From: Chryseobacterium sp. CH25
GTDB taxonomy: Bacteria > Bacteroidota > Bacteroidia > Flavobacteriales > Weeksellaceae
Assembly: GCF_004119455.1 (NCBI RefSeq)
Contig: NZ_NRQT01000003.1
Coordinates: forward strand, 310,001-374,000
Direction of reading: 5' to 3'
Length of the DNA stretch: 64,000 bases
In this document: one piece after another, positions 675 to 10,800 of the stretch
How positions within the stretch are numbered: position 1 is the stretch's first letter
Layout of the letters: every line of letters starts with the position of its first letter
The notes under the pieces: model-generated
Seen by the model: the letters and a program-made list of their open reading frames with translations, nothing else
Database searches by the model: none
What the model was told of the DNA's origin: nothing
Made by a program: the position numbers and the translations under genes

Positions 675-2213
675 ATGAATAATAAATTCATCCCAATAAT
701 TTCGGTGTTTATGACGATCTCACTGATTGTCTTTGTTACGCTCCAATTTTATTGGCTGAAAGGCTATTATGGTGTACTGGAACAGGACTTTTCAAATAAG
801 GTTTATTCTGTTCTGGAAAACACATCAAAAACAATTGAAGAAATTGAAGCCGATAAATATCTGACTAAGGATAATAGAAGTACAATTCTTGCCAACAGCA
901 AAAACCCTTCTCTTACAACCATTCAACAGGTAGAAGATTCCGGAACGCAGAGACAGATTATCTACTCCAAGAATATTATTTCCAACGCCCAGCTCCCTAT
1001 CTCTAAAACAGGAGATTCTGTAAAGCTTACTACTTTATATACGGATGAAGCAGCTTACAAAATAAAAAGAGACACTACCAATCGTGAAATTCTTACCTCG
1101 GACATCAATCAGGATATTGAAACCGGGGATTATGCTGTAAAAGAATTCGTAAAGGTATATGGAAACAACTTACCTATTGCACAAAGGGTAAGCCCTGCCA
1201 CTCTTGACTCGGTAATCACCAAAGAATTAAAAATCAGAGGAATTACTGCAAAGTTTGGTTATGGAATTGTTGACAAAGACAATAAACTTACCAGTATTGC
1301 CAATAAAGCCTACAAAGAAAAAAAGGACAGCAATACTTACAGCTACCCTCTTTTCACTGATAAAAAGTACAATACTTTATATAATCTGGCTTTAGTTTTC
1401 CCTAAAAAGGAATATTCTCTGGCGATGAACAACTGGCCGATGCTGTTGGGAACTTTTCTTTCATTGCTTACGATTCTTGGGATTTATATTATTTCCATCA
1501 ATTATATGATGAGACAGAAGAAATTAGCTGAAGTAAAAACAGACTTCATCAACAACATGTCTCATGAATTCAAGACCCCGTTGGCAACCATTTCTGTAGC
1601 AACAGATTCATTAGCGAATGATAAAATTGCCACCAATCCTGATAAGGTAAAATATTATTCAGAGCTGATTAAGCAGGAAAATCTGAGAATGAAAAAGCAG
1701 GTAGAGAATGTCCTGAATATGTCTAAGCTTGAAAGAAATGAGGTAGAATTATTCCTGAGGGAAACCAATGTAAGGGAATTGATTAAAAGAACAACAGAAT
1801 CTTTCAATCTGATTGTACAGCAGAGAAACGGTACTCTGACTCAACAGTTCAACGCTACTCATTATAATTTTAAAATTGATGAGTTCCACATCTCAAATAT
1901 GCTGGTGAACTTACTGGATAATGCTAATAAATATTCTCCGGAAGCTCCGGAAATCCATGTGGAAACCAGAAATGAAGGTCATTGGTATGTGATTGAGATC
2001 TCAGATAAAGGAATGGGAATGGAAACCCAAAATAAAACAAAGATCTTCGAGAAATTCTTCAGAGAAGAAACCGGAAATATTCACAACGTAAAAGGACAGG
2101 GATTAGGACTTTCCTATGTTAAAAAAATTGTAGAACTACACAAAGGACAGATTATTGTGGAATCCAACAAAGGTGATGGAAGTACATTTACAATAAAGCT
2201 GCCGATGGGATAA
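675..2213 (+). CDS. Two-component sensor histidine kinase
   Basis: A 512-residue membrane histidine kinase. It has an N-terminal membrane segment (about 8-29), a periplasmic sensor region of roughly 220 residues with no domain I recognise, and a second membrane segment (about 253-277). The dimerisation/phosphoacceptor domain follows, with MSHEFKTPLATI placing the phosphorylated histidine at about 297. The ATPase domain shows the N box (NLLDNANKYSPEA, about 412-424), a G1 box (SDKGMGM, about 442) and a G2 box (GQGLGLSYVKKI, about 474). It precedes a response regulator on the same strand by 152 bases and most likely signals to it. The pair resembles the RprX/RprY type common in Bacteroidota; the stimulus is unknown. 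Confidence 0.93.
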   Translation: MNNKFIPIISVFMTISLIVFVTLQFYWLKGYYGVLEQDFSNKVYSVLENTSKTIEEIEADKYLTKDNRSTILANSKNPSLTTIQQVEDSGTQRQIIYSKNIISNAQLPISKTGDSVKLTTLYTDEAAYKIKRDTTNREILTSDINQDIETGDYAVKEFVKVYGNNLPIAQRVSPATLDSVITKELKIRGITAKFGYGIVDKDNKLTSIANKAYKEKKDSNTYSYPLFTDKKYNTLYNLALVFPKKEYSLAMNNWPMLLGTFLSLLTILGIYIISINYMMRQKKLAEVKTDFINNMSHEFKTPLATISVATDSLANDKIATNPDKVKYYSELIKQENLRMKKQVENVLNMSKLERNEVELFLRETNVRELIKRTTESFNLIVQQRNGTLTQQFNATHYNFKIDEFHISNMLVNLLDNANKYSPEAPEIHVETRNEGHWYVIEISDKGMGMETQNKTKIFEKFFREETGNIHNVKGQGLGLSYVKKIVELHKGQIIVESNKGDGSTFTIKLPMG

Positions 2214-2365
2214 AACATGAGTAATAAGTGATGAGTAATAAATAATATAAGATTAAAGATTTATTTATCATCATTAATTATAAAAATAAGAAACCAAAAA
2301 CAAAATATAAGAAGAGAGAGTGAGACAGTTCATTCTTAATTGTTAATTATTAATTAGTAAAAGTT

Positions 2366-3052
2366 ATGAGCAACAGAATATTATTAGTAGAGGACGATCA
2401 GAGTTTCGGGGCGGTGCTTAAAGATTATTTAACAATCAATAATTTTGAAGTTACCCTTGCTACTGATGGAGAACAGGGATTGAAAGAGTTTACAGAAAAT
2501 GAATTCGACATCTGTATATTTGACGTAATGATGCCTAAAAAAGATGGGTTTTCATTAGCTGAAGATGTAAAAAAGATTGATAAAAATACACCTATCATAT
2601 TCCTTACCGCAAGAAATATGAGAGAAGATATCTTGAAAGGGTACCAATTGGGAGCTGATGATTATATCACAAAACCATTTGATACGGAACTTCTTTTATA
2701 CAAGATTAAGGCTATTCTTCAGAGAAGCTCTACTCTTGAAAATGAAGAGCAGGAGCAGTTCAAGATCAGCAATATCTTCTTCGATTCTATGCTGAGACAA
2801 CTGAAAGTGGGTGATAAAGAATACAAACTTTCTCCAAAAGAAAATGAGTTATTGAAGCTTCTTTGTATTCACAGAAACGATTTCATGCCGAGAGACCTTG
2901 CGCTGAGAAAGATCTGGAAAAAGGAGAACTACTTTACAGCAAGAAGTATGGACGTATATATTGCCAAGCTTCGTAAGTTATTAAAAGATGATGAAGGATT
3001 GGAGATTATCAACGTTCACGGAGAAGGATTCAGACTTCTTGTGAAAAATTAA
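2366..3052 (+). CDS. OmpR/PhoB-family response regulator
   Basis: A 228-residue DNA-binding response regulator. The receiver domain (about 4-115) has the acidic pair E9/D10/D11, the phosphoacceptor Asp at 53 in FDVMMPKKDG, the conserved Thr in FLTARN, and the Lys in DDYITKPF. The C-terminal winged-helix domain (about 130-227) has the usual LSPKENELLKLL and RSMDVYIAKLRKLL segments and ends in NVHGEGFRLL. It follows the histidine kinase and is likely its partner. A strong hairpin terminator lies right after it. The 152-base gap after the kinase contains AT-rich sequence with no clear promoter, so co-transcription is likely but not shown. Confidence 0.95.
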   Translation: MSNRILLVEDDQSFGAVLKDYLTINNFEVTLATDGEQGLKEFTENEFDICIFDVMMPKKDGFSLAEDVKKIDKNTPIIFLTARNMREDILKGYQLGADDYITKPFDTELLLYKIKAILQRSSTLENEEQEQFKISNIFFDSMLRQLKVGDKEYKLSPKENELLKLLCIHRNDFMPRDLALRKIWKKENYFTARSMDVYIAKLRKLLKDDEGLEIINVHGEGFRLLVKN

Positions 3053-3075
3053 TCCAAAAACCGCATTATAAATAT

Positions 3076-3113
3076 AAAATTAGCAAAACAATTGAAAATG
3101 TTTTGCTAATTTT
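3076..3113 (+). terminator. Hairpin terminator after the response regulator
   Basis: A 15-base arm at 3076-3090 (core TTAGCAAAACA) is exactly complementary to 3099-3113, with an 8-base loop, and the 3' arm ends in T residues. It closes the two-component operon. Its 3' arm also supplies the -7 box of the next gene. Confidence 0.8.
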
Positions 3114-3114
3114 G
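3107..3114 (+). promoter_or_regulatory. Candidate -7 box for the repeat lipoprotein
   Basis: TAATTTTG matches the Bacteroidota -7 consensus TAnnTTTG and ends 20 bases before the ATG at 3135. It overlaps the 3' arm of the terminator. No clear -33 TTTG at the usual spacing. Confidence 0.5.
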
Positions 3115-3134
3115 TTTCATACCCAATCAAGGAT

Positions 3135-3800
3135 ATGAAGAATACGTTTTTAGGTTTGATCTCTGTATCAATATTAGCGGTCTCTTGTAAAAAAGATGAA
3201 AGAGCCACTTATTTAAAAGAAGAAGCTGGTTCACAGCAGCCTTCTGTAGCTATCAATAATACTCCAAAAGCTTCCCTGATGGATCAGGCAGGAATCCAAT
3301 CCAACTCAGCAACTGCTGCAATGGCCACTGCTCCAGGAATGAACCCTGCACACGGACAGCCGGGACATAGATGTGATATTCCTGTAGGACAGCCATTAAA
3401 TAGCCAGTCCTCTTCTGCCACTCCGGCATCCCAAAACATCACTGTTGGCGCTAATAATACCATTCAGATTGATCCGAGTACGGCAGCTCAGGCAAAAGTA
3501 GCAATGAACAACAGTACTCAACCTGTAAAAACGGCTCCGGGAATGAATCCGCCACACGGGCAGCCTGGGCATCGTTGTGATATTCCTGTAGGACAGCCTT
3601 TGAGTAGTAAGCCTGCTGCTACAGCACCATCTCAATCAGTGCAAAATAATATACAGGTTACACCTACTCCAACACCTGCGCAAGCTCAGGCTCAGGCCGC
3701 TTCACAAAATCTGGCTATGGGAGAAAAGCCTAAAGTAAATCCAGCTCACGGAGAACCTTGGCACAGTTGTTCTCTAAAAGTTGGTGATCCTTTGCCATAA
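3135..3800 (+). CDS. Lipoprotein with three HGxPxHxC repeats
   Basis: A 221-residue lipoprotein: signal peptide followed by lipobox SILAVSC, lipidated Cys18. The body is low-complexity (Ala, Gln, Ser, Thr, Pro) and holds three copies of a motif at about 66-88, 134-156 and 199-221. The first two read APGMNPxHGQPGHRCDIPVG; the last is a diverged copy (NPAHGEPWHSC) at the extreme C-terminus. Each repeat has two His and one Cys, spaced so that it could bind a metal. The motif is common in secreted Bacteroidota proteins of unknown function. It lies upstream of a Cys-rich protein and a receptor with CxxC modules, which fits a metal role, but that is inference. I do not recognise a named family. Confidence 0.85.
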   Translation: MKNTFLGLISVSILAVSCKKDERATYLKEEAGSQQPSVAINNTPKASLMDQAGIQSNSATAAMATAPGMNPAHGQPGHRCDIPVGQPLNSQSSSATPASQNITVGANNTIQIDPSTAAQAKVAMNNSTQPVKTAPGMNPPHGQPGHRCDIPVGQPLSSKPAATAPSQSVQNNIQVTPTPTPAQAQAQAASQNLAMGEKPKVNPAHGEPWHSCSLKVGDPLP

Positions 3801-3806
3801 ATTTTG

Positions 3807-3814
3807 TATTTTTG
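3807..3814 (+). promoter_or_regulatory. -7 box directly before the Cys-rich gene
   Basis: TATTTTTG fits TAnnTTTG and ends 5 bases before the ATG at 3820. If transcription begins 5-7 bases after the box, the mRNA would start at or next to the start codon, i.e. a leaderless or nearly leaderless message. This supports ATG 3820 over the upstream TTG at 3781. Confidence 0.55.
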
Positions 3815-3819
3815 CAGCT

Positions 3820-4182
3820 ATGAAGCTATTTCACATATTGGCAATAGTATTTTGTTTGGGAATCTTCCTGGTTCCTAAGGATAGCTTCTACGCTCAATCT
3901 ATGCAGGAAACCTGCTGCAAGGCAGACTCTGGAAAGAAGAGCGACTGTTGTAAAAATCACTCCTCAAAAAAAGATAGTAAAAATGATACTACAAAGTCAT
4001 GTAATGATGACTGCTGTTCGTCATGTATTGCCTGCTTTACTTTTATTGAGACTCCTTTTTCAAAAAATTTGCGTCTGGAACTTTCTTATTACAAAGCGAA
4101 TAAGAATCCTCAGTTTCAGTATTCAGACCCTTATCTTTCCGACCGTTTAAAAGAAATCTGGCAGCCGCCCAAAATAGGTTAA
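3820..4182 (+). CDS. Small Cys-rich secreted protein
   Basis: A 120-residue protein with an N-terminal hydrophobic segment (about 1-17) ending in SFYAQ, consistent with export. The mature part has nine cysteines, mostly as CC pairs within Lys/Asp/Ser-rich sequence (TCCKAD, SDCCKNH, NDDCCSSCIAC). The C-terminus (YLSDRLKEIWQPPKIG) is Cys-free. The open frame extends upstream to a TTG at 3781 inside the previous gene, but ATG 3820 gives a proper signal sequence and sits behind a -7 box. Dense Cys pairs plus the downstream receptor with metal-type CxxC modules suggest metal binding or metal-responsive function at the envelope. I do not recognise a family. Confidence 0.8.
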   Translation: MKLFHILAIVFCLGIFLVPKDSFYAQSMQETCCKADSGKKSDCCKNHSSKKDSKNDTTKSCNDDCCSSCIACFTFIETPFSKNLRLELSYYKANKNPQFQYSDPYLSDRLKEIWQPPKIG

Positions 4183-4196
4183 CTAAATCATTATAA

Positions 4197-4219
4197 GTTC
4201 GTTATACACTATAGCGAAC
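4197..4219 (+). promoter_or_regulatory. Inverted repeat before the HMA-TonB receptor
   Basis: GTTCGTTATA-cac-TATAGCGAAC: 10-base arms with one G.T pair and a 3-base loop, 30 bases upstream of the receptor ATG. There is no strong T-run after it, so an operator or mRNA hairpin is as likely as a terminator. Confidence 0.45.
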
Positions 4220-4249
4220 CGTATTTTATTTAATCTAAACTTTAAACAA

Positions 4250-6955
4250 ATGAAATTATATATTTCCAGGTTCATACTTGGTGCATTATTCTTATTTACA
4301 CAATTTATATCAGCTCAAAATCTTCAGAAAAACCAGTTCAAAGTAAAAGGGAACTGCGAAATGTGCAAAACACGAATTGAAGGAGCTGCCAAAAAAGCAG
4401 GTGCAAAAACAGCTGTTTATTCTATTGATCTTCAAACGCTAACCCTAGAAACAGATAAGGTTTCTGCGGACGACATCCTGAAAAAAGTAGCGGAGGCAGG
4501 TCATGACAATGAAAAATTTAAGGCATCTGATGATGTTTATAAAAGCCTTCCGGGATGTTGTTTATACGACAGAGATCTACAGCCTGTACAGGCAGAATCT
4601 CATCATGATCACCATACCACTGCTACAACTCCTGCTAAAAAAGACAATGAGTTTTATGTAAGAGGAAACTGTGCATCATGCAAAAACAGAATTGAAAAAG
4701 CAGCTAAAAGTGCTGGTGCAGATTCAGCGGAATGGAATGCAGAAAAGCAAACGGTCGCTTTACATTTTGATGCTTCAAAAACCTCATCAGATAAGATCCT
4801 GAAAGCAATTGCTGATGCAGGACATGATAATGAAAAATACAAGGCTCTAGATACCACTTACAACGGACTTCCGGGATGTTGTCTGTATGACAGAGATTTT
4901 ACTTTCGGGGAAGCCAACCCAAAGGTTCATTATGAAGAGGAAACTAAGCATGAGGACCATAAAGATCATTCAGTTTCTGCTAATGATGATTCTCACAGCA
5001 AAAATGAGAAGAGTATTGACGGTGTTGTAGTAACAGGTTCTAAAGCAGCTACCGCTTTAAGTAAAAAAGAAGCCGGGCTGGTTTTTAATATTGATAAAAA
5101 AGAACTTTTAAAAGCGGCATGTTGTAATTTATCTGAAAGTTTTGAAACCAATGCTACTGTAGATGTATCTTTCAGCAATGCTGTTACTGGTACCAAACAG
5201 CTTAAAATGCTTGGTTTGGATCAAAAATATACAAGTTTAACCAAGGAACAGCTTCCTGAGATCAGAGGATTAGCTTCTGCATATGGACTGAATTTTATTC
5301 CGGGAAGATGGATTGAAAGTATTCAGCTTACGAAAGGTGGAAGTACAGTAACCAACGGTTATGAAAGTATTACAGGGCAAATCAATACTGAATTATTGAA
5401 AAATGCTAAGGAGCCGGAAACTTCTCTGAATCTTTTCTCTGATTTTAACGGAAGAGCTGAAGTGAATATTACCAACGTCTCTCCTATTAATGATAAGTGG
5501 TCACAAACATTCCTTCTTCACGGAAACGGAACTTTCGGGAATACGGATATGAATGATGACGGTTTTCTTGACAGGCCCAAAGGAACGCAGATTAATGCAG
5601 CTTATCTTTTAAATTATAACGATCTTGAAAAATCAGGATTCGGGTCTCATTTCGGGATTAATTTTATCCGTGATGAAAGAACTGCAGGGCAAACTGCTTT
5701 CGACAAGAAACTGGCGCAGGATAAGCAACCGGCTTATGGTGTAGGCATTGATATTTCAAGATTCCAGGTTTGGAACAAAACAGGATATGTTTTTAAAGGA
5801 AAACCTTACCAAAGCATCGGGTGGATGAACCAATATGTGTATCACCAGCAGGACAGCTTTTTTGGGTTGAGAAATTATTCCGGGCAGCAGCATACCTATT
5901 ATTCGAATCTAATTTTTGAAAGTATTATTGGAAATACCAACCATAAATATAAAGCAGGAGCAAGTTTCCTATATGATGGTTATAATGAAACATACTTATT
6001 AGATAATATTAAAAGAAACGAAATTGTTCCGGGAATCTTTGCTGAATATACTTTAACTGGCTTAAAATATACTTTAGTAGCAGGAACCAGAGTGGATTTC
6101 CACAACCTGGCAGGAACTCAGTTTACACCAAGAGTGAATTTTAAATATGATTTTACTCCGCAGACTATTTTAAGACTTTCTGCCGGAAGAGGTTTCAGAA
6201 CAGCAAATGTATTTGCAGAGAGCCAGCAGTATTTTGCTTCTAACAGAGCGATCAATATTCTACCTAACGGAGGAAATATTTATGGTTTAAAGCCTGAAAT
6301 TGCATGGAACTATGGTGCAAGTTTACAACAGGAGTTTAAGCTTTTCGGAAGAAAATCTACTATTATTGCTGACTTTTTCAGAACAGATTTTCAGGATCAG
6401 GTGTTAGTGGATTTAGATAAATCTCCTCAGCAGCTTACATTTTACAACCTGGAGGGGAAATCATTTGCCAATTCATTCCAGACGCAGTGGGATTTTACAC
6501 CTTTCAAGAACTTTGATGTAAGACTGGCATATAAATATTATGATGTACAGGCAGATTATATCGGTGGAAGAAGAGAAGTTCCTTTTATGGCTAAACACAG
6601 AGGGTTTGTAAACCTTGCCTATGCTACCAATAAAAATGATAAAGGTGGATTCTGGAGCTTTGACACCACGTTAAACTGGGTAGGAAAACAGAGACTTCCT
6701 GATATGTCAGGTAACCCTGAAGAGTTTCAGTTACCTAGATACTCTAATTCTTATGCGGTATTGAATGCGCAGATCTCAAGAAACTTCAACAAAAAGCTTA
6801 GAGCTTATGTAGGCGGAGAAAACCTAACATCTTATTACCAGAAAAATGCAATCATCGATTTTAAAAATCCTTTCGGAAATTATTTTGATGGCGGAATGGT
6901 ATACGCCCCAATTATGAAAGCGAATTTCTACGTGGGACTGGATGTGACTTTTTAA
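4250..6955 (+). CDS. TonB-dependent receptor with two N-terminal HMA-like CxxC modules
   Basis: A 901-residue outer-membrane receptor with a signal peptide (about 1-22). Two similar modules of about 105 residues follow: GNCEMCKTRIEGAAKKAGA (C36, C39) and GNCASCKNRIEKAAKSAGA (C141, C144). Each ends in LPGCCLYDRD (CC at 103-104 and 210-211) and both resemble heavy-metal-associated domains. A His/Asp/Glu-rich linker (about 115-125 and 227-250) leads to a TonB-box-like GVVVTG (about 258-263), a plug domain (IQLTKGGSTVTNGYESITGQI) and a beta-barrel ending in a terminal aromatic (VGLDVTF). Receptors of this type take up chelated metals. The fused modules suggest copper or another soft metal binds before TonB-driven uptake. 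That substrate is inferred. A terminator follows. Confidence 0.9.
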   Translation: MKLYISRFILGALFLFTQFISAQNLQKNQFKVKGNCEMCKTRIEGAAKKAGAKTAVYSIDLQTLTLETDKVSADDILKKVAEAGHDNEKFKASDDVYKSLPGCCLYDRDLQPVQAESHHDHHTTATTPAKKDNEFYVRGNCASCKNRIEKAAKSAGADSAEWNAEKQTVALHFDASKTSSDKILKAIADAGHDNEKYKALDTTYNGLPGCCLYDRDFTFGEANPKVHYEEETKHEDHKDHSVSANDDSHSKNEKSIDGVVVTGSKAATALSKKEAGLVFNIDKKELLKAACCNLSESFETNATVDVSFSNAVTGTKQLKMLGLDQKYTSLTKEQLPEIRGLASAYGLNFIPGRWIESIQLTKGGSTVTNGYESITGQINTELLKNAKEPETSLNLFSDFNGRAEVNITNVSPINDKWSQTFLLHGNGTFGNTDMNDDGFLDRPKGTQINAAYLLNYNDLEKSGFGSHFGINFIRDERTAGQTAFDKKLAQDKQPAYGVGIDISRFQVWNKTGYVFKGKPYQSIGWMNQYVYHQQDSFFGLRNYSGQQHTYYSNLIFESIIGNTNHKYKAGASFLYDGYNETYLLDNIKRNEIVPGIFAEYTLTGLKYTLVAGTRVDFHNLAGTQFTPRVNFKYDFTPQTILRLSAGRGFRTANVFAESQQYFASNRAINILPNGGNIYGLKPEIAWNYGASLQQEFKLFGRKSTIIADFFRTDFQDQVLVDLDKSPQQLTFYNLEGKSFANSFQTQWDFTPFKNFDVRLAYKYYDVQADYIGGRREVPFMAKHRGFVNLAYATNKNDKGGFWSFDTTLNWVGKQRLPDMSGNPEEFQLPRYSNSYAVLNAQISRNFNKKLRAYVGGENLTSYYQKNAIIDFKNPFGNYFDGGMVYAPIMKANFYVGLDVTF

Positions 6956-6980
6956 AAACAAAATACTCCTTTAGTCTATG

Positions 6981-7011
6981 AAAAACAGTATCAAATTGAT
7001 ACTGTTTTTTT
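6981..7011 (+). terminator. Hairpin terminator after the TonB receptor
   Basis: Arms 6981-6994 (core AAACAGTATCAA) and 6996-7009 are exact complements and a T-run continues past the 3' arm. It separates the metal-related genes from the GntR gene. Confidence 0.85.
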
Positions 7012-7071
7012 ATTTTCATTAAAAAATTAATCATCAAATCAAAAAAATACTATATTTACATTTTATTATAT

Positions 7072-7083
7072 GTATGAACATAC
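7072..7083. promoter_or_regulatory. Candidate GntR operator overlapping its own start codon
   Basis: GTATGAACATAC is a perfect palindrome spanning the ATG at 7074. Its reverse strand shares 10 of 12 bases (TATGTTCAnAC core) with a site before the GH38 gene at 7853-7876, suggesting autoregulation. Confidence 0.4.
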
Positions 7084-7835
7084 TTAATCAGGATTTTACG
7101 ATTGATCATAACAGCAAACTCCCTCTGCATGTGCAGGTAGAGGAACTTTTCCGTAAACTTATCAAAATAGAAGTTTATAAAAAAGGAGCTTTATTGCCTA
7201 AAGAAGTAGATCTTGCCAACCTGTGGGGCGTTTCGAGAAACACTATTCGACAGGCAACCAACAAACTTGAAAATGAAGGGCTGATCATCCGTAAAAAAGG
7301 GATTGGGACACGTGTTGCCGAAAAGAAAAGTCTGGTCACAGGACTGGATCATTGGTACAGCTTTACCAGGGAAATGCAAGAAAAAGGAATTCATGTGGTC
7401 AATCAATTGCTGAAGACCACTCAGGTAGTGCCCAATGAGGTAATCTGCAATTTCTTTCAATGTACTCCTGATAAAAAGATATTCAAGCTTTCCAAATTAA
7501 AAGGAGAAAGTTCAGGAGATCCGATCGTTTATTTTGAAAGCTATTTTCACCCAAGGATCGGAATTGATAAAGATGATGACTTCAATATGCCACTTTATAG
7601 TATGCTTCAGGAAGAACATGGGATCATTGTACACCGTTCCCGTGAGAATATCAGTGCATGCCAGGTGGGTAGTGTAATAGGAAAAAAGCTGAAGGTATCT
7701 GCGTCTTTTCCAGTCTTAAAACGAGAACGCTTTGTCTATGATATTAACGGGAAACCTGTAGAATATAATGTAGGGTATTACCGTTCGGATAAATTTACCT
7801 ATACGATAGATATTAATAAATCTCCAGAGAATTAA
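7074..7835 (+). CDS. GntR-family transcriptional regulator (HutC/UTRA type)
   Basis: A 253-residue regulator. The N-terminal winged helix-turn-helix (about 12-80) has LANLWGVSRNTIRQATNKLE as the recognition region and IIRKKGIGTRV as the wing. The C-terminal part (about 95-245) fits the UTRA ligand-binding domain (YFESYFHPRIG, FVYDINGKPVEYNVGYYRSD). Such proteins usually repress sugar or amino-sugar genes and are released by a phosphorylated sugar. It is the first gene of the plus-strand arm of the mannose/N-glycan locus, 60 bases before GH38, so it probably controls that arm. A palindrome at its start codon suggests autoregulation. The true inducer is unknown; a mannose or GlcNAc derivative is plausible. 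Confidence 0.93.
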   Translation: MNILNQDFTIDHNSKLPLHVQVEELFRKLIKIEVYKKGALLPKEVDLANLWGVSRNTIRQATNKLENEGLIIRKKGIGTRVAEKKSLVTGLDHWYSFTREMQEKGIHVVNQLLKTTQVVPNEVICNFFQCTPDKKIFKLSKLKGESSGDPIVYFESYFHPRIGIDKDDDFNMPLYSMLQEEHGIIVHRSRENISACQVGSVIGKKLKVSASFPVLKRERFVYDINGKPVEYNVGYYRSDKFTYTIDINKSPEN

Positions 7836-7852
7836 TTTTCTCTTAGCAATCA

Positions 7853-7876
7853 ATATGTTCAAACATTCTAACATAT
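7853..7876. promoter_or_regulatory. Inverted repeat upstream of GH38, possible GntR operator
   Basis: ATATGTT-N10-AACATAT, 20 bases before the GH38 ATG. Within it, ATGTT-ca-AACAT forms a tighter dyad at 7855-7866. It shares the TATGTTCA core with the palindrome at 7072-7083. Confidence 0.4.
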
Positions 7877-7895
7877 AAATATAAAAACTAAGCAT

Positions 7896-10800
7896 ATGTA
7901 TAACAGGTATTTTCTTTTGCTGGTCTCTTTCCTGATAAGCAATATTGCTCATGGTCAGAAAAAAGCACCTTACTTTGGCAATGTACAGACCGTGAACGGA
8001 TACAACCGTGAAATAAGCGGAGAAAACATTGATTATTTTTCAGCTTTCCCCGATCATGCTACCCGTGCGCTTCTTACCCGTACGACTGACGGTGCTAAAA
8101 CAATAGAATGGGAAACAGCTCCTGCACCACAAAAGAATACCGGACCATACGTCTACTTCAACTGGTTGGTTTCACATTCATCAGGGACCAGCGGCGGGCC
8201 CAGAAATTTTGATCTGTATATCAATGATCAGAAAGCATTAATCCTTACCACTTATCCGGCCAATCAACGTCCGGACTGGGTTTCCAAAGCTGCTGACAGC
8301 ACAGCGTTTGTATTTCATCAAACCAAAATGGACGGCCTGAAAGACTCTTATGGAATTGCCTATTTACGCGTCCCTGTCAGTAAAATAACACCGGGAAAAC
8401 CTCTCCGCTTGAAACTGGTAGGTCAGAACCAAAACAGCCGTGACTGGTTTATGACCTATAAATTTACTTTCGAGGAAAAAATAGATGCAGCCTCTACTCC
8501 ATTCATCTTAAAAGACGGAAAACGCCTCATCACCCTTACTACTTTACATTTTGGACCGGATCAGAAAATAACAGCAACCATCAATAATAAAGACTCTCAC
8601 TCTTTCACAATACCGGATGGGATCAAAACTTTTGACATTCCAGTTGATCTTTCACAGGAAGGGGGTAATGTACAGCTGGTAGTCAATTCAGGAAAAAAAG
8701 AGTTGTTCCGTAAAAATATTGAGGCTGGAAAAGTTGTTCCCCGTACTTTATATTTCATCCATCATTCTCATACGGACGTTGGCTATTCTCACCTGCAGGC
8801 TGAAGTGGAAAAAATACATACTAAAAACATCTATGACGCTATCAAAATGATTAAGGAGACTAAAAACCTTCCTGAAGAAGCGCGTTTCAAATGGAATGTA
8901 GAAGCACTCTGGGATGTGGAAAATTTTATGAAAACAGCCACTGCAGAGGATAAAAAATCATTTGTAAATGCAGTAAATGAGGGCGGAATAGGTCTTTCTG
9001 CCATGTATGGTAATATTTTAACGGGTCTCAGCCAGCCGGAAGAACTTTTCCATTACACGGAATATGCTCAGAAACTTGAAAAAGAATATGGATTAAAAAT
9101 CAACAGTGCGATGATGTCTGATGTACCGGGATTTGCATGGGCTTTAGTCCCGGCACTTACTTCATCCGGAGTAAAATATTTTTCCAGCGGGCCCAATTAT
9201 TTAGGGAAAACCAACCCTTATCTGGGAGACCGTGTAGGGAATTTTGTAAAAAACTGGGGCGATAAACCTGTATGGTGGCAATCGCCATCCGGAAAGGAGA
9301 AAATATTATTCTGGACTGCAGGAAGAGGCTACTCTTCCTGGCATGGAGTACACCCGGGGGCTGTATTTGAAACTGGTCAGAAAAAAATCTCAGAATATCT
9401 GGAAGATCTTACGAGAACCAATTATCCGTATGACATGGTGCAGTGGCGCTATAATATTGTAGCGGACAATGGTCCTATAGATCCTTCCGTATCAAGATTT
9501 GTAGACGAATGGAATAAGAAATATACTTCCCCTAAGATTGTTCTGAGTACAAATGAAAAGATGTTTGAAGTATTCGAAAAGAAATATGGTGACCAGATCC
9601 CTGTTGTAAAAGGAGATATAAGTCCTTATTGGGAAGATGGATCTATGTCCACCGCCAAAGAGGAAGGGATCAACCGAAACAGCAGCCTGAAATTACAGCA
9701 GCTGACAACGCTCTACGCGATGCTAAATCCTGGTCAATACAACAGCCAAAAGTTTTATGATGCATGGAGAAATGTTATTCTTTTTCATGAGCATACCTGG
9801 GGAGCTTTCAACAGTATTACGGCTCCGGACCTTCCTTTTGTAGCGGACCAATGGAGGGTAAAAAGACAGTTTTCCCTTGATGGAAATTCTCTTTCAGAAA
9901 ACCTGGAAAAAGAGCTCCTTCAGCCTCTCACCGATCCTTCCTCTAAAACAATTGCGGTTTTCAATACCTCATCATGGACGAGAAGCGGTGTGGTAACCAT
10001 TCCGGGAACGGCTTTCGGAAATGCTGTGAAGGATGCATCCGGGAATATAGTTCCTCTTCAGAAGCTTCAGGACGGAAGCATGGTATTTTTTGCCAAAGAC
10101 ATTCCGGCATTAGGTACAGCAACCTTTACTATTATTAAAGGTAAAACACAATCATCCGGTACTTTTACAATTTCAGACAACGGAATTTCCAATGGAAAAA
10201 TAGCCCTGATATGGGATCGTAAAACAGGAAGTATTACCCGTTTTGCAGATAGCGGTTCTACCAATTACGCAGGAAGTTTTAATGATCAGGGACTCAACAG
10301 CTATTGGTATGTACCAGGATCTGATCCGAAAGAAGTGATGACCAATGCTGATGTACAGGTAAAAATCCTGGAAAACGGTCCTGTAATCGCTAAAGTTTCC
10401 ATAATCTCAGAAGCTCCCGGAGCCCATAAACTGGAAAGAATTATCACATTGACAGCCGGAAGTGATGAAGCTGCTCTGGAAAACATTGTGGATAAAAAAC
10501 CAGTACGTACAAAAGAATCTGTTCATTTCGGATTTCCTTTTAATGCCGACTTTAAAAACATTACAATAGATGCAGGTTATGGAACGATGAAATACCTTAC
10601 GGACCAGCTTCCCGGTTCCAATATGGATTACTGGTACGGCCGCCGTTGGGTAGATGCTTCTTCCGAAGAAAAAGGAATGCAGTGGATGATGATTGAAACC
10701 CCATTGATTGAAGCTGCAGAGATGATTGATGAAAGAATGACCATCGACAACAGCCATAAAAAATGGAAAGATAAAGGAACGCCAGGAACAACAAACTGGT

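Follow-up and report, generated by a model that had tools for sequence, protein, structure and literature searches.

We analysed a 64,000-nucleotide stretch of the Chryseobacterium sp. CH25 genome (contig NZ_NRQT01000003.1, positions 310,001 to 374,000; hereafter 'the window') and found that a gene at positions 4250–6955 of its forward strand encodes an exported TonB-dependent receptor of 901 amino acids, in which two modules of heavy-metal-associated (HMA) fold precede the plug and the β-barrel. In relatives of this receptor, the same domain is usually the separate product of an adjoining gene, which suggests that channel and chaperone probably cooperate in metal import. We give about an even chance to the reading that the protein is a TonB-energised outer-membrane importer to which a periplasmic metallochaperone is covalently joined, and that it takes up a thiol-loving metal, of which copper is the likeliest. 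This proposal builds on the composition and fold of the protein, the conservation of its ligands and Cys pairs, and the fusion or adjacency of the two parts in separate clades, all of which are direct observations.

The open reading frame (ORF) starts with ATG and is backed by Pfam, conservation within the genus and a structure model; all window features given here lie on the forward strand. Residues 1–22 (4250–4315), read by eye, form a signal peptide with expected cleavage between A22 and Q23, and this SA|Q end agrees with the Bacteroidetes Q-rule as given in the available part of PMC5837995. HMA module 1 (residues 26–109, 4325–4576), delimited by sequence, profile and model, reads GNCEMCKTRIE ... 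GHDNEKF ... LPGCCLYDRD and contains C36, C39, H85, C103 and C104. Module 2 (residues 131–216, 4640–4897), recognised by Pfam and by comparison of its model with the PDB, reads GNCASCKNRIE ... GHDNEKY ... LPGCCLYDRD and contains C141, C144, H192, C210 and C211. The linker between the modules includes an HHDHH stretch (residues 118–122, 4601–4615). A second linker (residues 217–253, 4898–5008), rich in His, Asp and Glu and flexible as judged from sequence and a low predicted local distance difference test (pLDDT) score, holds a further His-rich stretch before the plug (residues 227–249). It is followed by a putative TonB box, DGVVVTG (residues 257–263, 5018–5038), which by eye alone resembles the OprC Ton box PSVVTGV in the available part of PMC8610252. 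The plug (approximately residues 264–385, 5039–5404), placed by a sub-cut-off Pfam match and by structural alignment, carries the motif ACCNLSESF with a Cys-Cys pair at C291–C292 (5120–5125), and the barrel spans approximately residues 386–901 (5405–6952) on the basis of Pfam and alignment to BtuB.

Searched against Pfam, the 901-residue protein matched the barrel family PF00593 (94 bits, cut-off 27, E 2.5e-26) and the HMA family PF00403 (43.4 bits, cut-off 24.8, E 4.5e-11), with the best HMA stretch at residues 140–193, in module 2; PF07715 (Plug) scored 19.5 bits, under its cut-off of 23.9. Module 1 alone, with its CxxC present, reached 19.2 bits against Pfam HMA, under the cut-off, and 116.9 bits against a profile of receptor-adjoining HMA proteins that itself contains both window modules. 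The two modules were the sole strong matches to this profile in the CH25 genome, the next best scoring 19.2 and 18.3 bits. All ten receptor cysteines are paired (36/39, 103/104, 141/144, 210/211 and 291/292). An initial annotation, made without database searches, had described a TonB receptor with two CxxC modules and a His/Asp-rich linker at these coordinates, and sequence, Pfam and the model bear it out. Its placement of the modules in the periplasm likewise agrees with the signal peptide and with the order of modules, TonB-box-like stretch and plug. Its premise that HMA domains normally occur in the cytoplasm or on P-type ATPases was too narrow: MerP is periplasmic (title of PDB entry 1afi), and exported HMA proteins are usual beside the receptor in the Bacteroidota loci examined.

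The full receptor model had a mean pLDDT of 88.3, with values below 50 at residues 1–3 and 20–23 and in both linkers (residues 114–129 and 226–263). Structural alignment of model residues 264–901 matched BtuB, Cir and OprC; Z was 34.4 against BtuB (2guf, VIA-align; 519 residues) and 30.5 against OprC (547 residues). Together with the Pfam barrel match, this places the protein in the TonB-dependent receptor superfamily, with its 22-strand-type barrel and N-terminal plug. In module 1, DSSP assigned strands at residues 26–32, 54–58 and 63–68 and helices at 37–49 and 73–82. Module 2, modelled alone (pLDDT 91.4), aligned with CopZ (2qif; Z 10.8, root-mean-square deviation 1.0, 67 residues) and with MerP (1osd; Z 10.3); in the PDB comparison its fold is nearest to copper chaperones, with MerP level with them. 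H192 falls at His61 of Synechocystis Atx1 in the 2xmt and 2xmv comparisons, a match inferred from end-position offsets. A Foldseek search against viral proteins returned a single SusC-like match at E <0.001, which we judged irrelevant.

The receptor is a core gene of the genus. Searching other genomes for the same architecture, as the initial annotation had proposed, recovered the receptor in 98/98 sampled Chryseobacterium genomes, as well as fusions in two sets of Bacteroidota. The match was uninterrupted over residues 1–901 in 94 of the 98 and in pieces, through a contig break or stops, in 4. We inspected 36 genus loci, that of the window included and the same species possibly recurring, and all kept CxxC, GHD and CC in both modules; 4 failed only a stricter pattern that required K after CxxC. 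Exactly ten cysteines, all paired, were present in 34 of these 36 receptors and eleven (one extra) in the other 2. The closest named relatives are from Chryseobacterium species, with 96% identity to C. jejuense. Given this genus-wide conservation of the receptor and its modules, we rejected the idea that they arose by chance or from a mis-read frame.

At a threshold of 1e-40, receptor matches were found in 113/118 genomes of a family sample and 83/247 genomes of a phylum sample. We retrieved 20 family loci, selected to be varied, and 79 phylum loci, one per matched genome outside the genus. All 79 phylum receptors fell into subfamily A (62 loci), with a CC plug motif like ACCNLSESF, or subfamily B (17 loci), with (D/N)CxxCxT in the plug. 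By its ACCNLSESF motif, the window receptor is assigned to subfamily A, an uncharacterised Bacteroidota group. We define the ACCNLSESF receptor and HMA system here by the plug CC motif together with an HMA domain, fused or adjacent, that carries CxxC, a G[HY]D loop and a C-terminal CC; the window receptor fits, with C291–C292 in the plug and two fused modules that have CxxC, loop and CC. The CH25 genome also holds a subfamily-B receptor (L002, G000:C11:74748-76424) with CxxC in its plug (VCNTGDIHINGLEG); an N-terminus-like ORF sits in another frame, so that the gene may be frameshifted, and a thioredoxin-like ORF, recognised by eye, follows.

An HMA domain was fused to or adjoined the receptor in 43 of the 62 subfamily-A phylum loci, comprising 2 fusions, 40 loci with a same-strand HMA gene within 1 kb and L109, where the HMA gene overlaps the receptor start as called. 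The same was true of 0 of the 17 subfamily-B receptors in this sample. Nearly all neighbouring HMA proteins have a signal-peptide-like start, CxxC, GHD or GYD and a CC tail; that of L121 is divergent and lacks the CC tail. Of the 20 family loci, 16 have the fusion, 3 have an adjacent HMA gene and 1 (L071) has neither; the 16 fused loci have one module (11 loci), two (4) or three (1), and 6 of them also hold a separate copy. A set of 80 named loci comprised 31 fused and 49 adjacent cases, in a sample that is biased because it was ranked by similarity to a query containing HMA modules and that may share species with the unnamed sets. Taken together, the sequences suggest that the pairing of an HMA domain with a subfamily-A receptor extends across Bacteroidota and that the fusion mirrors the adjoining gene. 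Two features had been overlooked in the initial annotation, namely this mirroring and the fifth Cys pair in the plug.

The putative metal ligands are strongly conserved. CxxC and the near-terminal CC were kept in 74/74 fused modules (the window's two and those of locus L226, discussed below, included), and the loop motif read GHD in 68, GYD in 5 and GHE in 1. The separate HMA matches, which include a few CopZ-like proteins, kept CxxC in 104/104 and CC in 101/104. The profile used to find modules started from sequences with these motifs and may therefore miss decayed copies. The plug CC was invariant in 46/46 aligned subfamily-A receptors, with or without a fused HMA domain, and thus belongs to the transporter rather than to the fusion. 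Subfamily A is recognised by a pattern that contains this CC, yet all 79 phylum loci were either A or B.

All modules precede the plug CC in 48 of 49 fused loci. In a tree built from 104 of 161 receptor cores after thinning (short search, plain model), the N-terminal fusions occupied two separate sets, one in Weeksellaceae and one in Chitinophagaceae/Sphingobacteriaceae; long branches and unusual composition were flagged in other rows. A single clade of the 29 fused rows, excluding L226, was rejected (approximately unbiased test, p 0.000586). The tree suggests that the chaperone was probably tied to the receptor twice, in one to three copies. A single fusion followed by splitting would require the split-off gene to have changed sides in Flavobacterium, in which it is located downstream. 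The one exception to the N-terminal arrangement, a candidate third fusion in a Flavobacteriaceae metagenome bin (L226), was dropped: for want of a stop codon, its receptor frame continues into the HMA gene downstream, whose now internal signal peptide is kept, reflecting a missing stop or an assembly error. One receptor (L058:4980-7988) carries three HMA modules, and the near identity of modules 2 and 3 indicates a recent tandem duplication. A tree of HMA modules, with few columns and mostly unresolved, did not place the origin of module 1 and showed only recent local duplications.

We then considered the neighbouring genes. Immediately upstream of the receptor, at 3820–4182, an ATG at 3820 opens a gene for a small exported Cys-rich protein of 120 amino acids, which we call HYC_CC_PP-like from NCBIfam and a sequence pattern. 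Its score against NF047658 (HYC_CC_PP) was 16.6 bits, under the cut-off of 28, with a query one residue longer at its start; the same-position ORFs score above it, at 43.1 bits in L083 and 43.9 bits in L119. By a simple pattern, a Cys-rich CC/PP ORF lies upstream in 20/20 family loci, 46/62 phylum subfamily-A loci and 76/80 named loci, and several loci missed by the pattern show such an ORF by eye. The first cassette gene in the genus, at 3135–3800, encodes a lipoprotein with three HG-x-P-x-H-x-C repeats, with an SVSC lipobox read by eye and no Pfam match. Searched within the genus only, as a family of its own, it was found in 59/60 genomes; in the named loci, it preceded the receptor in 15 cases, at a distance of 413–499 bp in 14 and of 1,211 bp in the other, and followed it in 1. 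We infer that it belongs to the receptor system, possibly as a metal-binding surface partner.

The stretch that separates the Cys-rich gene from the receptor gene holds a hairpin with a T-rich tail behind it (4197–4219), which shows covariation within the genus: both sides carry changes in 7 of 10 pairs, 0/500 shuffles reached the covariation score and slid versions scored lower. RNAalifold predicted no pairs on the same upstream alignment. The hairpin might control receptor levels by acting as an attenuator or a partial terminator. A sigma-70 scan gave no signal (8 promoter-like sites against 12.4 expected), and Rfam returned nothing at gathering score in 2000–8000. Directly upstream of this cassette, at 675–3052, lie genes for a histidine kinase and an RprY-like response regulator (300.9 bits, cut-off 370), in an order that recurs in L058, from one other genus, and a 15-pair hairpin at 3076–3113 parts them from the cassette.

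Several genomic associations bear on the identity of the metal. P1B ATPases were found near subfamily-A receptors in three loci of the fetched genomes (17 bp upstream in L092, downstream in L121 and 2.1 kb upstream in L180), and all three carry the signature motifs of Cu(+) ATPases. Those of L092 and L121, the two scanned, also pass the NCBIfam cut-off for copper-translocating ATPases. Two other HYC_CC_PP genes of the CH25 genome pass the family cut-off, one preceding DUF3347 and multicopper oxidase genes and the other an RND transporter gene. The former cluster (L248:3176-7685, G000:C210) consists of the HYC_CC_PP gene, a DUF3347 gene and a multicopper oxidase gene; the oxidase contains heavy-metal-binding HMBD repeats and three Cu-oxidase Pfam domains over cut-off, and scores 371 bits against TIGR01480, under the cut-off of 479. 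From its gene content, this cluster appears to be of copper-tolerance type, in the same genome as the receptor. The CopZ-like fold, the three nearby Cu-type ATPases and the HYC_CC_PP gene beside a multicopper oxidase make a circumstantial case for copper and, if a soft metal is handled at all, we lean towards copper as that metal. Co-occurrence with heme-copper oxidases was dropped as a clue, since 235/247 genomes have them.

In the mechanism we propose, a metal or metal complex would enter via the barrel, and TonB would pull the plug, whose C291–C292 pair would take the metal or stand on its path. Each of the two tethered HMA modules offers a CxxC, a loop His and a CC tail; together they would catch the metal before it spread through the periplasm and would hand it on to periplasmic cuproproteins or an inner-membrane transporter, while the His/Asp-rich linkers could supply reach and extra low-affinity sites. 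Metal identity, direction of import, plug-to-HMA transfer and the acceptors are what we infer here. The suggestion in the initial annotation that the modules receive metal on entry is plausible, being favoured by the pattern of neighbouring genes and fusions and by the invariant plug CC. More broadly, and with somewhat less than even confidence, we suggest a Bacteroidota-wide copper import route from plug CC thiols to a dedicated periplasmic chaperone, encoded by the adjoining gene in most lineages and tied to the receptor probably twice, with the Cys-rich protein and the HGxPGHRC lipoprotein as further metal-handling parts.

A number of observations weigh against this proposal. Nineteen of the 62 subfamily-A phylum loci have no fused or close HMA gene. 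In L119, the HMA gene lies 1,170 bp from the receptor; L096, L127, L130 and L137 have <250 bp of DNA downstream; and in L115 a YHS-domain protein with a signal-peptide-like start (L115:4911-5255, + strand) occupies the usual place of the HMA gene, an exchange of one type of metal-binding domain for another that in itself counts in favour of the proposal. The 13 that have neither, with ~2.6 kb or more of sequence on each side, indicate that HMA is not obligatory. In only 3/162 subfamily-A loci was a P1B ATPase present in the sequence examined around the receptor, mostly 2–6 kb on each side. On the Haliscomenobacter hydrossis plasmid pHALHY01 (L155), a plug-CC receptor with the variant motif ACCDLAGCF is clustered with CusA/CzcA, an adaptor and a zinc-type P1B ATPase; a second receptor lies between, and no HMA gene is listed beside the L155 receptor. 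The OprC copper site, CxxxM in the plug and HxM in the barrel, is absent from all 901 residues, and the receptor cysteines could be disulfide-bonded in the periplasm. Plasmid copies of the receptor were found in 4 records, of which one adjoins metal-efflux genes and two adjoin an HMA gene; the record H3 is unannotated, and a receptor frame was found in it.

Some of these data would also suit the same machine working on another metal (zinc, nickel or a metal-chelate), with the modules as zinc/cadmium-type chaperones. HMA folds serve zinc ATPases too (ZntA and ZiaA were among the matches), zinc-type ATPase and CusA/CzcA genes lie downstream on the Haliscomenobacter plasmid, and the OprC site is missing. 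We nevertheless regard another metal as unlikely, given that 3/3 P1B ATPases found near subfamily-A receptors in the fetched genomes are Cu-type, that the loop-5 His is shared, by offset, with the Synechocystis copper chaperone, and that neither the additional Asp nor the additional Cys of zinc HMA domains is present in the modules. The thiols could instead serve a metal trap, in which the modules do no more than buffer toxic copper or silver at the outer membrane, the cargo of the receptor being something different. HYC_CC_PP relatives do occur in resistance-type clusters with multicopper oxidase or RND genes, and CusA/CzcA adjoins the receptor in L114. However, the plug CC is invariant even in receptors without HMA, which places the thiols in transport itself, and a buffer would need neither adjacency nor fusion to a transporter; we consider a trap improbable.

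The position of the modules, between signal peptide and TonB box, is that of a signalling domain, and they could sense periplasmic metal and then either gate the receptor, by hiding or exposing its TonB box, or pass a signal to a regulator, in the manner of FecA or FpvA. The two-component pair at 675–3052, its recurrence in L058 and a sigma-70 family gene that follows the receptor and HMA genes in Parabacteroides would suit such a role. Yet the receptor gave no match to the STN signalling domain at E up to 0.1, the six window genes scanned (675 to 7835) included none for FecR or a sigma factor, and the HMA protein is separate in most relatives, which a built-in gate would not need. We rate a regulatory function as low in probability as a trap, although a dual role in regulation and metal handling may be compatible with the evidence. 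Least probable, with a very low chance, is that the modules bind no metal and act as protein-binding adaptors or thiol-redox domains. Plant HMA folds can act as protein-binding baits (RGA5 and Pik were among the structure matches) and periplasmic Cys pairs can be oxidised, as in oxidised MerP (1osd), but CxxC, loop His and CC are kept in all 36 genus loci, and L115 substitutes a domain of the YHS metal-binding type.

The window receptor combines features of several known systems. MerP is an exported single HMA domain that acts ahead of a membrane transporter, and its fold is close to that of module 2 (Z 10.3, above); by contrast, the window modules have an extra CC tail and are fused to an outer-membrane receptor. 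Identity with MerP was ruled out by a TIGR02052 score of 16.1 bits against a cut-off of 92.55 and by the six scanned window genes, none of which is a mer gene. With CopZ/Atx1 and the metal-binding domains of Cu-ATPases, the modules share the β-α-β-β-α order, a CxxC on the first loop and a loop-5 His, as in Synechocystis Atx1. They differ from CopZ/Atx1 in being exported and in having GNC rather than GMTC before the motif, and from CopZ in the C-terminal LPxCC extension, which lies outside the CopZ-matching range (model residues 3–69).

Among receptors, OprC/NosA of Pseudomonas shares the TonB-dependent receptor fold (the alignment over 547 residues given above), and OprC binds copper using a plug Cys, according to the available part of PMC8610252. 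The window receptor was rejected as a member of this group, since it lacks the CxxxM-HxM site, and differs further in its plug motif ACCNL and in carrying HMA modules with a CC tail; OprC was absent among its 13 sequence matches. CrtA/BfrG, which we set beside the window receptor by description only, is likewise a TonB-dependent receptor for outer-membrane copper import; its orthologs are mostly from Proteobacteria and have a conserved E/Q/H/R/W/Y site, and the available part of the text does not mention HMA (PMC12914433). Within Bacteroidota, the OprC-like receptor G2EC70 of Bizionia argentinensis has been proposed for copper uptake and has CxxxM-HxM, unlike the window receptor; several HMA proteins appear as copper chaperones in the available part of the same study, without a link to a receptor (PMC11213822).

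Neither an HMA-receptor fusion nor HYC_CC_PP was the subject of any paper among the matches listed in a literature search that fell short of most subscription journals, which is not proof of absence. The parts are of known kinds, and their arrangement and phylum-wide pairing appear undescribed in the literature searched. What becomes of a toxic metal ion on leaving a TonB-dependent channel is the question that a receptor with an attached chaperone addresses: if the proposal is right, the tether could let the chaperone collect the ion right at the exit of a TonB-driven channel, and the fused receptor, together with relatives that have a separate chaperone, makes metal hand-off testable. It would also add a Bacteroidota copper-import system whose paired genes now bear only the database labels 'TonB-dependent receptor' and 'heavy-metal-associated domain-containing protein'. 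A further close comparison is with these Bacteroidota pairs themselves, which have a receptor of the same subfamily and an unfused chaperone encoded next door, whereas the window receptor unites the two parts in one polypeptide with two modules.

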